DNA from: Desulfovibrio sp. JC010
GTDB lineage: Bacteria; Desulfobacterota; Desulfovibrionia; Desulfovibrionales; Desulfovibrionaceae
Direction of reading: 5' to 3'
Assembly: GCF_010470675.1 (NCBI RefSeq)
Contig: NZ_VOIQ01000004.1
Coordinates: 62,001-126,000, forward strand
DNA: 64,000 bases
Part shown: one piece after another, positions 30,321 through 45,007 of the stretch
Layout of the letters: each line of letters starts with the position of its first letter
How positions within the stretch are numbered: the first letter of the stretch is position 1
Translations under genes and position numbers: made by a program
The notes under the pieces: generated by a model
Seen by the model: the letters and a program-made list of their open reading frames with translations, nothing else
Database searches by the model: none
What the model was told of the DNA's origin: nothing

Positions 30321-30396
30321 TCCCTGCCGGGGGCCTTAAACCCTTTTCCAAAAGGGTTTAAGAATCCCAAAACGTTTTATTAGGCTTCGCCGCTTC
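30321..30396 (+). repeat. Intergenic repeat copy R5 (forward, 5' end truncated)
   Basis: Begins at TCCCTGCCGGGGGCC, so the GCCTCCGGCGG part is lost. The palindrome TTAAACCCTTTT-CC-AAAAGGGTTTAA (30336-30361) is intact, followed by GAATCCCAAAACGTTTTATT and GGCTTCGCCGC. Confidence 0.8.
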
Positions 30397-30512: not shown

Positions 30513-31163
30513 TTACTTGACCTGCTCCACAATTGGTCCGCCATCTTTTTGCGGTTGCAAGGCCTGAATGGCGTCTGCGCTTTCGGAAAACAAATCCAGA
30601 GGATGATGACTGATGACCAGCACCTGAAAACCAAGCCGCTCGGCAATGGTCCTGATCAGCTCCATAAATCCGGGAACCAGATCGGGCCGCAGCCAGCAGT
30701 CCTGCTCATCCAGCACCAGAAAAGGTCTGTGAGCATCAGGATTAAGCCGCGACAAGGCAATGAGCCGCAGTCCCACAGAAAGAATATTACAGACCGAGCC
30801 GCCCTGCCCGACCATGATATCTTCTTCGCCGCCCTGATTCAGGATCTGGAAATCCACCTGCAATTTCTTATCGCGGATGGATGCAACAGCCTTAACTTCG
30901 CGATCCTGCCCCAGAATCTCCCGGATGGCATGGGTCAGGTTGGTTTCCAGCTCGCTCAAAAGTTCCCCGAACAAAGCGGTGGAAAGCTCCTCCAGCCGCT
31001 CGGCAGCACCCGGAGCTATCTCCAAAAATTCCTCAACTTTGCACCCTTCTTCGCGCAAAGAATCCCAATCGTCCATACGTGACGAAGCCTTCGCACTTAA
31101 GCGGTCTGCTCTGCGTTCTAAAGATTCCAGCGATGGAATTATTTCATTCGCACAATCTTCCAT
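30513..31163 (-). CDS. Rad50/SMC-like ATPase, C-terminal half as a separate protein
   Basis: 216 aa. An N-terminal helical part (1-85) leads to a C-lobe ATPase half: a signature-like GQGGSVCNILSVGLRLIAL (119-137), Walker B FLVLDE (148-153) and a switch His in VISHH (184-187). It has no Walker A of its own. The protein at 32503-33840 has Walker A and a zinc hook but no Walker B, so the two should combine into one ATPase. The gene is last in the operon, separated from the coiled-coil gene by about 98 bp that hold repeat R6. ATP-driven handling of DNA ends is inferred. Confidence 0.82.
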   Translation of the reverse strand: MEDCANEIIPSLESLERRADRLSAKASSRMDDWDSLREEGCKVEEFLEIAPGAAERLEELSTALFGELLSELETNLTHAIREILGQDREVKAVASIRDKKLQVDFQILNQGGEEDIMVGQGGSVCNILSVGLRLIALSRLNPDAHRPFLVLDEQDCWLRPDLVPGFMELIRTIAERLGFQVLVISHHPLDLFSESADAIQALQPQKDGGPIVEQVK

Positions 31164-31180
31164 AATAAAAACAATCCAAA

Positions 31181-31259
31181 ACTATTAAAAGTTTTTGAAG
31201 AGTCCAGAGAAACTTTTTCCAAAAAGTTTCTTTGGCCCCCGGAGAGCCGCCGGAGGCAT
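31181..31259 (-). repeat. Intergenic repeat copy R6 (reverse), inside an operon
   Basis: On the minus strand it starts 2-3 bases after the coiled-coil gene's stop codon with GCCTCCGGCGGCTCTCCGG. The palindrome AGAAACTTTTT-CC-AAAAAGTTTCT (31208-31231) has diverged from other copies with both arms changed together. It lies between two genes that probably belong to one functional unit. Confidence 0.82.
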
Positions 31260-31261
31260 TC

Positions 31262-31573
31262 TTACCCCTGCTCCAGATTATCCAGGCCTTCTTTAATTGA
31301 CATGATGTGCGCGCGGTACTCGGTGACCAGCCGTGCGTTTTCGGCCTTTTTCTCTTCCAGCAGTCTGGCAAGCTCCTGCGGGTCACTGGTTCCGTACTGC
31401 GCTTTGGCTTCTTCTTCCAGCGCGGCCAACTGGCTGGTGGTGCTGGCCAACTCCTGCTCGGTGCGGATTTTCTTATCATGCAGCCATTTATGCTGTTCTT
31501 TAAGCAGATTAAGTTCCTGCTCAAGGCCGTTTGCGGGCTGACCGCCGTTCTTCATTCCATTACCCATTGCCAT
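31262..31573 (-). CDS. Small coiled-coil protein of the split Rad50/Mre11 operon
   Basis: About 103 aa. After a Gly/Asn-rich start, residues 18-100 are a continuous charged heptad helix (LEQELNLLKEQHKWLHDKKI ... LEEKKAENARLVTEYRAH). The start at 31573 overlaps the end of the Mre11-like gene by 14 nt; downstream in-frame ATGs at 31567 and 31555 are alternatives. It might supply the missing return strand of the Rad50 coiled coil or bridge the two ATPase halves. There is no known family assignment. Confidence 0.75.
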   Translation of the reverse strand: MAMGNGMKNGGQPANGLEQELNLLKEQHKWLHDKKIRTEQELASTTSQLAALEEEAKAQYGTSDPQELARLLEEKKAENARLVTEYRAHIMSIKEGLDNLEQG

Positions 31574-32513
31574 CGGTAACCTCCGTATAGAGTTCCCAGA
31601 TGAGCGTGCTTTCCGGCTCTTCCGGGTCGATATTGTCTGTTAAAAACTGCTTCAGCCCCTCGCCTTCATGGGTCCGTTTCCATGCCAGACGTTCAAGGCC
31701 CTGTAAAAATTTTGATTCCGCTGCTGCGGCATCTTCGGCTTCAGGCAAAAATTCCTGATCAGGAAAAACCTCATAAAAATCACGATGCGGGATTTCCCAT
31801 TTCTCAAGATCCTCGCAATCAGGGGTCCAAATGGAAGCCAGCATCTTGCGCTCAAGGGCGTAACGGGAAAAGGTCAGCCGGGTGATATTTCCGGGATTGG
31901 CCCAAGTGGTCATGCCTGCGACGATGGAATCACGCGGGCCGTGAATATGCCCGTTAATAATCCAGTCGATGCCCGGCTTCTCCTTAATGGCATGCTGTTT
32001 TTTTTCGCACTCAGGAAAAGAAATATTGTGATGGGTCACCCAGACTACTTTGATATATTTCCCGTCCTCACGATCAAATTCCTTGGGAATCGGCGTTGCG
32101 TCCGGCGACGCACCTACCAGCACCAGACCTTGCGGGGTCTCAAGTTCAAAGGCCGGCCCCTGCTCGCTCATGAGCCTTATGGCCCCGGCGGCATCAAGCA
32201 CGGCCATGGAAACATCGGGGGTGAAACGGGCCTGATATTTATCGTGGTTACCCACCAGCACAAACGGCTTATGCTTCCCGAACAGCCCGATCATATCCAC
32301 CAGCAGGGAATTGCCGTTATCGCGCGGCCAATGGAAAAGATCACCGAGAATAAGGGGGACCATACCCAACTCTTCCGCCCGCTTGAAACAGGCTTCAAGC
32401 TTGGCCAGCACATCCCCGGCAAAGTCTCCCAAACGCTGCCCCGGAGGGGTGGAAGCAATGTGCGGATCACCGATGAGGAACAGCCCTTTGGCTTTGACTC
32501 TCTCAAGACTCAT
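31560..32513 (-). CDS. Mre11/SbcD-like metallophosphoesterase
   Basis: 317 aa. All calcineurin-like phosphoesterase motifs are present: GDPHIAS (D16, H18), ILGDLFHW (D58), VGNHDK (N89, H90), VTHHN (H161/H162) and NGHIHG (H189, H191). The C-terminal 90 residues are acidic and may dock onto the ATPase. It overlaps the Rad50-N gene by 11 nt and the coiled-coil gene by 14 nt, so the three are tightly coupled. A Mn-dependent nuclease acting with the split ATPase is the likely role. Confidence 0.87.
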   Translation of the reverse strand: MSLERVKAKGLFLIGDPHIASTPPGQRLGDFAGDVLAKLEACFKRAEELGMVPLILGDLFHWPRDNGNSLLVDMIGLFGKHKPFVLVGNHDKYQARFTPDVSMAVLDAAGAIRLMSEQGPAFELETPQGLVLVGASPDATPIPKEFDREDGKYIKVVWVTHHNISFPECEKKQHAIKEKPGIDWIINGHIHGPRDSIVAGMTTWANPGNITRLTFSRYALERKMLASIWTPDCEDLEKWEIPHRDFYEVFPDQEFLPEAEDAAAAESKFLQGLERLAWKRTHEGEGLKQFLTDNIDPEEPESTLIWELYTEVTDGNG

Positions 32514-33840
32514 GGCTGTCCCCGATCATTTTCTGCGCATCCAGATCACCGCCGCAGAGCGGACAATTGCCGATCTCGGCCAGACGTTTTTCAATACGCT
32601 CATTAAGTTCAGCTTCATCCTGTTCCAGCTGAGTCAGATTGGCCCGGGCTTCCGACTCTGTTTTTCGCAACGCGGAAAGATTGTTCATAACCTGCATAAG
32701 TAGCGAGAAATCATGAAGTTCCGGAGGCTCGGCCAATGGTCCTAAAATTGCCGCCCGCCGTGAAATACTTCCCTGCAAAACGTAGTTACGCTCCAGATTG
32801 CTGATGGTTGCGGAAAGGGCCGCAACATCTTCCAGCTGCGGTGTAGATTCAAGCGATTCCAAGACCTTACAATATGCGGATTGTTTTTTTTCCGCAAAAG
32901 AAAGTTGATTATGCCGTGCAAGGTCCGCTTCCATCCGCTGTGTCGGGAAGAGCTCCGGCGGTGTTTGCAGGCCGTTCAGAGATTCAGCTCTTGATTTCAG
33001 ACTTTCCCCGTGGGCACGTAGATTCTGCATGCCCGTGACAACCCGTTCCAGCGGTGCTGAAGGAAAAAGGTGCGGCACATCCTGCAACCGGGACAATTCC
33101 TTTTCCCGCGCTGCGAAATTTGTTTTTAGCTTCTCAAGCTCACCCTTACGCCGCAAAAAGCCTTCAACCGCCGGGATTTCCCTATCCAGCACATCCATGC
33201 AGCCTTTCAATTCGCGGGCGGTTTCCAGTTCCAGATTCACATCGGGAAGGTTTTGCAGTTCGTCCAACTCAGCCCGGATTTCATCCATTTTCTGCTGCTG
33301 AAATTTCTTTTCCCGCTTGGCCGCCCGGACGCGATTCTTCAATTCCGTCTGCATGGCCAGCAGGTGCGAAGCCTCGGACGAAGACGCAAAAAACTGGGCC
33401 GCAACCGACGAAGGCTGGTCGAGCAGAAAAATAGGATTGCGCTGGTTGCCGATATGAACATCCAGCGACTTACCCCCTTCCAGCGGGACCTGATTGAGCC
33501 TTAAAATATTCAGAATATCTTCCGGGGTGTTGCGTCCGAACTTGGCATAGACTTCCCATTCCTCATCGCCGGGGCGCAGCACTTCGTACCATGCTGTGGC
33601 CTTCTTGCGAATCCACGCAACACGCACACCGTCGTCCATTTCCAGCTCCACACGGGCCTTTTTAGCCCCGTGACGAATGAAATGCTTGGGCAGGGGGTTG
33701 GTGGCAATGCAGCGCAAAGCCTCAACAATGGAGGATTTACCGCTATTATTTGGCCCGGTAAGTACGGTCAGACCTGAACCGAGTTCAATCTCGGTTTCTT
33801 TGTGGGCTAAAAAATTTTTAAGTAGGATTTTTTTGATCAT
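32503..33840 (-). CDS. Rad50/SbcC-like ATPase, N-terminal half ending in a zinc hook
   Basis: 445 aa. It starts MIKKILLKNFLAHKETEIEL with Walker A GPNNSGKS (29-36). Following strands read HGAKKARVELEMDDG, with a probable Q-loop-containing region near residue 133 (NQRNPIFLLDQP). A long coiled coil (about 160-420) ends in CPLC (426-429), the zinc-hook motif; only 16 residues follow. In normal Rad50 a returning coil and the Walker B lobe would come next; here they are absent and a C-lobe is coded three genes later. The start is 6 nt after the methyltransferase gene. Confidence 0.85.
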   Translation of the reverse strand: MIKKILLKNFLAHKETEIELGSGLTVLTGPNNSGKSSIVEALRCIATNPLPKHFIRHGAKKARVELEMDDGVRVAWIRKKATAWYEVLRPGDEEWEVYAKFGRNTPEDILNILRLNQVPLEGGKSLDVHIGNQRNPIFLLDQPSSVAAQFFASSSEASHLLAMQTELKNRVRAAKREKKFQQQKMDEIRAELDELQNLPDVNLELETARELKGCMDVLDREIPAVEGFLRRKGELEKLKTNFAAREKELSRLQDVPHLFPSAPLERVVTGMQNLRAHGESLKSRAESLNGLQTPPELFPTQRMEADLARHNQLSFAEKKQSAYCKVLESLESTPQLEDVAALSATISNLERNYVLQGSISRRAAILGPLAEPPELHDFSLLMQVMNNLSALRKTESEARANLTQLEQDEAELNERIEKRLAEIGNCPLCGGDLDAQKMIGDSHES

Positions 33841-44930: not shown

Positions 44931-45007
44931 AACTTAATAAAACTTTTTGGGATTCTTAAACCCTTTTGGAAAAGGGTTTAAGGCCCCCGGCAGGGTCGCC
45001 GAAGGCA
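44931..45007 (-). repeat. Intergenic repeat copy R9 (reverse)
   Basis: On the minus strand it starts a few bases after the glycine-zipper gene's stop codon: TGCCTTCGGCGACCCTGCCG, then TTAAACCCTTTT-CC-AAAAGGGTTTAA (44956-44981), then GAATCCCAAAAAGTTTTATT. Confidence 0.83.

Follow-up and report, generated by a model that had tools for sequence, protein, structure and literature searches.

Can the ATPase of a Mre11-Rad50 complex be divided permanently between two genes and still work as one enzyme? The question is raised by a four-gene cassette on the minus strand of Desulfovibrio sp. JC010, at 30513-33840 of a 64,000-nucleotide stretch of contig NZ_VOIQ01000004.1 (hereafter the window), where the open reading frames (ORFs) give the N half of a Rad50-type ATP-binding cassette (ABC) ATPase, a Mre11-type nuclease, a small protein and the C half of the ATPase. 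We put at roughly 80% the probability that these genes encode a naturally split Mre11-Rad50 complex which does the work of SbcCD in this clade, with the ATPase formed in trans. A housekeeping SbcCD-like DNA-end nuclease would, at that same level, be the best reading of its function, and all the indirect evidence suggests that it works like SbcCD. The cassette is a real and conserved variant of Mre11-Rad50 without a description in the literature searched; no account of a split or permuted Rad50 was found in the titles and abstract openings of the open-licence literature, and a 2020 classification of ABC ATPases could cover part of it.

Two halves of an ATPase and the nuclease between them

The N half (445 amino acids, 32503-33840) carries an N lobe, an arm and a zinc-hook motif close to its C terminus. 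Its gene overlaps by 11 nucleotides that of the calcineurin-like nuclease (317 amino acids, 31560-32513; Pfam Metallophos, E 1.3e-8), which in turn overlaps by 14 nucleotides the gene for a conserved protein of 103 amino acids (31262-31573); a further 98 nucleotides lie between the latter and the downstream gene for the C half (216 amino acids, 30513-31163). All four are read from the minus strand. An earlier note on this DNA had proposed this order, with overlaps of the first three genes and with Walker A and Walker B on different proteins cut at the hook, and both ORFs and motifs agree with it: the Walker A motif GPNNSGKS (N-half residues 29-36, 33733-33756) lies in the one half and the Walker B motif FLVLDE in the other. 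The C half was identified by profile and structural alignment; neither it nor the 103-amino-acid protein had a match passing a cut-off in a Pfam search.

Relatives were obtained by scanning contigs from one genome per species with an alignment of C halves, which matched 184 stretches, 178 of them encoding relatives, and the best 80 were kept. Motif counts refer to complete ORFs; N-half and nuclease ORFs truncated by the end of a locus were excluded. The genome sets used in this study (the 80 loci, 247 genomes of the order, 35 loci of the same family and a draw of 297 genomes from the phylum) overlap and are not independent of one another.

The Walker A pattern is present in all 57 complete N-half relatives. 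Pfam AAA_23 matches the N half at E 5.9e-16, and Rad50_zn_hook at E 0.0064, which is under its cut-off. A 55-row profile, built from 54 of the 57 complete relatives and the window N half (loci L158, L108 and L128 were left out), matches the N lobes of SMC6 (E 7.1e-10) and Rad50 (E 6.4e-9) as well as the zinc-hook structures of Rad50, 6zff (E 1.4e-6) and 1l8d (E 2.5e-5). Structural comparison likewise matches the N half to the N lobes of Rad50, SMC and RecF proteins, SMC-family N lobes scoring similarly. The N half therefore has the Rad50-type N lobe with Walker A that belongs to Mre11-Rad50 and SbcCD. It also has the zinc hook: the CPLC motif occupies residues 426-429 of 445 (32554-32565), and both of its cysteines are invariant in the 55 rows. 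A CxxC stands at most 45 residues from the end in 55 of the 57 complete N halves and slightly farther away in a 56th; all 27 viral N halves described below carry one.

Between lobe and hook lies the arm (32572-33372), as seen in AlphaFold secondary structure, in a 39-residue period and in the distances from Walker A to the hook. The model has a long helix (residues 157-249), three helices of 27-28 residues joined by proline-bearing linkers, and a final helix (379-423). By BLOSUM autocorrelation the arm of the window N half has peaks at 39, 78 and 117 residues, and the mean of the 57 relatives has them at 39 and 78. Among 56 relatives the Walker A-to-hook distance falls into clusters of 350-365, 387-400, 430-441 and 471-480 residues, with single cases at 507 and 519; across 56 related sequences the circular concentration is 0.80 at a step of 40.5 residues, a value reached by none of 2000 uniform draws. 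Since the distances step by about 40 residues, whole arm repeats seem to have been gained and lost among the relatives.

The C half matches the C lobe of Rad50 and SMC proteins by profile, by Foldseek and by VIA; Rad50 is the best match by profile and by VIA, the top VIA match being 1f2u_B. A phmmer search with the single C-half sequence gave weak matches, ABC transporters foremost. Walker B (residues 148-153, 30705-30722) and the SHH motif with the H-loop, or switch, histidine (residues 185-187, 30603-30611) are those of a Rad50-type C lobe: D152, E153 and H186 are invariant in 65 aligned rows (59 of the 80 genome relatives, five of the 27 viral ones and the window C half), and LDE is found in 80 of 80 relatives. 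The ABC signature is different. Where Rad50 has LSGGE the window protein has GQGGS (residues 119-123, 30795-30809), and the position of the signature serine is held by Q in 77 and by T in three of the 80 relatives; the serine-bearing LSGG[E/Q] of Mre11-Rad50 and SbcCD is thus absent, and the wording "signature-like", used in the earlier note for the GQGG, was apt for a motif that is truly atypical. The profile alignment also sets an arginine against the D-loop aspartate of Rad50.

With the signature serine replaced and the D-loop aspartate aligned with arginine, ATP hydrolysis could be weak or altered. A complex that binds ATP, hydrolyses little of it and serves as a DNA-end tether or sensor, instead of a processive nuclease of the SbcCD type, is an unlikely reading that still has to be weighed. 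The consistency of the replacement in 80 of 80 relatives speaks for it, as does the title of PDB entry 1us8, which calls the signature motif of Rad50 essential to ATP binding and biological function, but the conserved Walker A, the invariant Walker B and H-loop residues and an intact nuclease do not fit it well. In the window nuclease and in all 65 complete relatives the motifs DxH, GD, GNHD, H and GHxH are in place, so that every metal-ligand motif of a Mre11-type nuclease is accounted for; a phmmer search with the single nuclease sequence found nothing. The 103-amino-acid protein has invariant L24, L52, L68, L72, N79, Y86 and L97 (numbering of a 26-row alignment) and is read, from its sequence, as two putative helices flanking a YGTSD turn.

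Conservation in genomes, phages and megaplasmids

Hidden Markov models of the four proteins place N half, nuclease, small protein and C half in the window order and on one strand in 67 of the 80 loci; four of the others are cut by contig ends, and nine show a C half alone, three of them at contig ends. Among the named hosts are Desulfovibrionaceae, Desulfacinum, Desulfobacca, Syntrophobacteraceae, Desulfobacteraceae, many Planctomycetota and two metagenome-assembled genomes of Bacillota. In the order-level set the C half is matched at E<=1e-3 in 86 of 247 genomes, and in 81 of these the match is strong (E of 2.9e-60 or lower). Around strong matches in the same family, 32 of 35 loci hold all four genes in order and three (L059, L063 and L082) the C half alone; 40 stretches had been fetched, of which five with weak or second matches (L083 and L085-L088) stand outside the 35. 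The phylum draw has a C half at E<=1e-10 in 16 of 297 genomes, or 14 strong ones after two (G379 and G419, E ~1e-11, in frames of ~1200 amino acids) were set aside as probable SMC-like proteins.

Such conservation bears on the simplest explanation of a split gene, namely a sequencing or frameshift artefact or a gene in decay. The earlier note had argued that gene order excludes a simple frameshift, and it does: nuclease and small genes stand between the halves, and their order is conserved across phyla. Nothing beyond the split itself was found in favour of an artefact, to which we attach next to no probability and which we regard as ruled out.

Two other observations concern spacing and copy number in the same family. 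About 2 kilobases (kb) lie between the small gene and the C-half gene in two loci (L055 5956-9575 and L078 3390-6675), and in one genome an intact system is accompanied by a decayed second copy of the C half that contains two TGA stops (L083, G086:C3:305745-305975).

The cassette also occurs in viruses. Used as a query, the C half of Bacillus phage vB_BboS-125 gave 27 viral loci, that phage included, and all 27 hold separate genes for N half, small protein, C half and nuclease, in that order and on one strand. Other phages vary the arrangement: Microcystis phage Mvi-JY20 has the gene order of the window, its small protein matched weakly (E 8e-3); in an uncultured 485-kb phage the N half, nuclease and C half are scattered across 8 kb; and in Microbacterium phage Magritte the halves lie in distant genes. 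In vB_BboS-125 itself an AP2-domain gene, gp33, stands between the N half and the small gene (L048 6410-6982), and a homing-type insertion is our guess.

On megaplasmids of proteobacteria the halves are fused in permuted order, the C half first and then the N half, with CxxC near the end; both cysteines are invariant in the seven megaplasmid proteins examined. One permuted protein is matched across its junction by 21 proteobacterial plasmid records, 16 along 80% or more of its length and five along 49-61%. Beside the seven fusions a nuclease homologue (E<=0.01) lies downstream in four and a small-protein homologue upstream in two, the others having an ORF in place for which homology was not detected. 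Megaplasmids of Aneurinibacillus and Jeotgalibacillus carry a fusion of nuclease and N half together with a small gene; in Aneurinibacillus a separate C half follows, and in the examined stretch of Jeotgalibacillus no C half was detected. Viral scans with P0004, the L049 C half and the permuted alignment A3 gave no confirmed relative, and tblastn against phages gave one weak partial match, in Mvi-JY20, for the permuted L044 protein and none for the L039 protein.

A single chain running from N lobe through arm, hook and arm to C lobe, as in Mre11-Rad50 and SbcCD, was not found. None of the ORFs in the 80 loci matches two components, and the canonical N-to-C order was not seen among the relatives examined; the single-chain forms that do exist are the permuted fusions. 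It was also asked whether the C half might serve another Walker A protein, its linkage to the N half being incidental. In six of the 80 loci the C half lies inside a contig away from the other genes, and no N half could be found in two of the genomes concerned. Yet an intact N half is present elsewhere in three of the six, a fragment of one lies at a contig end in a fourth, and exactly these two halves form one polypeptide in the permuted proteins. We consider an incidental linkage very improbable and an unrelated partner ruled out by the fusions; since the permuted fusions join the two, it appears close to certain that the N and C halves are partners.

A midpoint-rooted tree of 54 C halves (including 32 of the 80 genome relatives and nine of the 27 viral ones) groups 33 host split forms (100/100) and places the seven megaplasmid fusions beside them, with the phage forms and Aneurinibacillus across the root; several branches are long and the deeper joins are unsure. 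Because split forms stand on both sides of the drawn root, the tree suggests, without proving it, that the split may be ancient and the permuted fusion a later event.

SbcD-type nucleases and the genomic neighbourhood

In the genome of the window, which is 99.96% complete, the SbcD model (TIGR00619) has no match at E<=1e-3, and no protein exceeds the cut-off of 478.5 for the SbcC model (TIGR00618), a cut-off passed by just one of 14 control genomes; one 19-bit SbcC match lies elsewhere in the genome. The family models therefore find no normal sbcC or sbcD here, and the genome has eight metallophosphatase matches, the cassette nuclease included. Across the 247 genomes of the order, SbcD exceeds its family cut-off in one of 81 split-system genomes against 42 of 166 others, and any SbcD-model match at E<=1e-3 is found in 10 of 81 against 149 of 166. 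The outcome is a near exclusion between the split system and SbcD-type nucleases, and it runs by clade. One of the 10 matches is an SbcD-like fragment with a TAG stop (G125:C14:137270-137512), which may be a remnant of sbcD.

Among the 35 same-family loci a methyltransferase-like gene stands beside the cassette in 20, with some stretches ending short of the site; a MurJ-like gene is near it in 12 and an Fpg-like gene in eight. These labels come from reading the sequences, and the neighbours of the window served as queries. The earlier note had left the choice between an SbcCD replacement and a defence nuclease, and the former is favoured by the near exclusion of SbcD-type nucleases and by the neighbourhood common to 20 of 35 loci; the latter is less favoured, the neighbours not having been searched for defence genes. 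In Desulfovibrionaceae the cassette looks like vertical housekeeping, again with no search for nearby defence genes.

The specific form of the defence reading would be an anti-phage or anti-plasmid nuclease related to Lamassu, in which LmuB is a Rad50-like ATPase of small size that often bears a zinc hook (PMC10586767). In that system LmuB is a single chain accompanied by an LmuA effector and usually by LmuC, unlike the split cassette. LmuB models are matched by the N half alone among the four proteins; the C half matches none of them, no PADLOC model is matched at E<=0.1 by the nuclease or by the 103-amino-acid protein, and LmuA is not among the matches listed, which for the N half are the best 25 of 111. 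The chain is split, and the Lamassu combination of single-chain LmuB with LmuA was not found among these matches. Defence genes are usually patchier in distribution. Here the cassette is present in 81 of the 247 order-level genomes, keeps one syntenic place in 20 of 35 loci, nearly excludes SbcD-type nucleases and is encoded by phages themselves. A Lamassu-type function seems to us improbable, more so than the tether discussed above, and a housekeeping replacement of SbcCD is preferred.

Several observations weigh against the main reading, that of a split Mre11-Rad50 complex doing the work of SbcCD. The top NCBIfam match of the N half is an archaea-specific SMC-related family (E 2.1e-18), with Rad50 second (E 5.3e-17) and both far under cut-off. 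The AlphaFold model of the N half has a mean predicted local distance difference test score (pLDDT) of 82.5 and a predicted template modelling score (pTM) of 0.39, and because of the latter the overall shape of the arm is not fixed. CxxC is missing from one of the 57 complete N halves, that of L158, and from the N half of phage Magritte. An SbcD-model match is also absent in 17 of the 166 genomes that lack the split system, one genome (G115) carries both the split system and an SbcD over the family cut-off, and, because the exclusion follows clades, Fisher p-values overstate the independence of the cases. With the neighbours of the window as queries, the three genes were not found in those of the 80 loci that lie outside Desulfovibrionales-type records. 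To these are added the altered signature and D loop, the detached C halves and the two genomes without a detected N half.

The 98-nucleotide spacer between the gene for the 103-amino-acid protein and that for the C half (31164-31261, minus strand) holds a dispersed palindromic element. Its 16-base palindrome has 39 copies in the genome at no more than one mismatch, against two for a reversed control, and the element (core TTTTTGGAAAAAGTTT) recurs at 30342-30355 and 44962-44975 of the window. It is possibly a dispersed terminator or a repetitive extragenic palindromic (REP)-like element.

Proposed assembly and comparison with known systems

In the proposed complex the N half would contribute the lobe with Walker A, the greater part of the arm and the zinc hook, and the C half a helix of about 70 residues and, together with the atypical signature, Walker B and the H-loop; the two would come together in trans as a single ABC ATPase head. 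The C-half helix (residues 12-84) probably pairs with the base of the N-half helix 157-249, and beyond that base the arm would be a single chain of ~39-residue helical repeats. Because its gene directly precedes that of the C half in both the window and the phage arrangements, the 103-amino-acid product is read as part of the arm, and it is probably a third structural subunit that would brace the single chain. A pair of these heads would close upon ATP and the ends of DNA and regulate the nuclease dimer, with the CPLC hooks joining the two arms. We infer assembly, stoichiometry, hook dimerisation and nuclease substrate from Mre11-Rad50, and by the same likeness a Mn-dependent nuclease activity regulated by ATP and a dimer held by the hooks are predicted.

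Taken together, these elements allow a wider and more tentative reading, which we hold to have somewhat less than an even chance of being right in all its parts. The cassette would be a distinct class of Mre11-Rad50 with an ATPase permanently divided at the hook and heads that are heterodimers of N and C halves; the outer arm would be a single-chain stack of ~39-residue repeats, variable in number, and not a two-stranded coiled coil, with the small protein replacing the return strand; the non-canonical signature would alter the ATP cycle; and the class would have taken over from SbcCD in entire clades and passed into phages and megaplasmids, with the halves joined again there in permuted order.

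The usual teaching is that the chain of Rad50, like those of its SMC relatives, must fold back at a hinge or hook to bring the two lobes together. A conserved natural form that lacks this continuity is a test of which arm segments are important for communication between hook and head, and the split cassette offers a small and separable system for structural work. As in the genome studied here, SbcCD-like systems can escape family models.

Rearranged genes of this kind have been met before on mobile elements. Yoshida 2011 reports fusions of Mre11 and Rad50 in Mimivirus, plasmids and phages and, for the cases in Anaerostipes and a Bacillus phage, one P-loop segment that was not observed (PMC3175470); these two are possibly a similar split. 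The resemblance to the cassette lies in the rearrangement of Mre11 and Rad50 on plasmids and viruses, and the difference in that nuclease and ATPase are fused; the word "split" is absent from that paper, and the portion considered here describes no split or permuted Rad50. Among phage protein families, phrog_16465 ("exonuclease") matches the N half (E 4.4e-33) and phrog_15167 ("ATPase") the C half (E 5.1e-4); PHROG lists them as separate families, and their pairing is not stated in the tables examined.

With SbcCD and Mre11-Rad50 the cassette shares an N lobe bearing Walker A, a C lobe bearing Walker B and the H-loop, a CxxC hook and an adjoining Mre11-type nuclease. Unlike them, it has its Rad50 in separate genes cut at the hook, a repeat-bearing arm, GQGGS in place of LSGGE, an additional protein of 103 amino acids and no match to the SbcD model in its genome. 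The single chain, the signature and the family models were tested and did not hold, and for this reason we have not filed the proteins as SbcC and SbcD; the split is kept in other bacteria, in phages and on giant plasmids, and it therefore looks like an alternative design and not a broken gene. A counterpart is found in the crystallographic heads of Rad50 from P. furiosus (1f2t/1f2u), in which one ATPase head is made up of two chains, one for the N lobe and one for the C lobe, and the N-lobe chains of 1f2u and 1f2t are among the structural matches of our N half. That division was reportedly made by experimenters, whereas the one described here lies in the genome.

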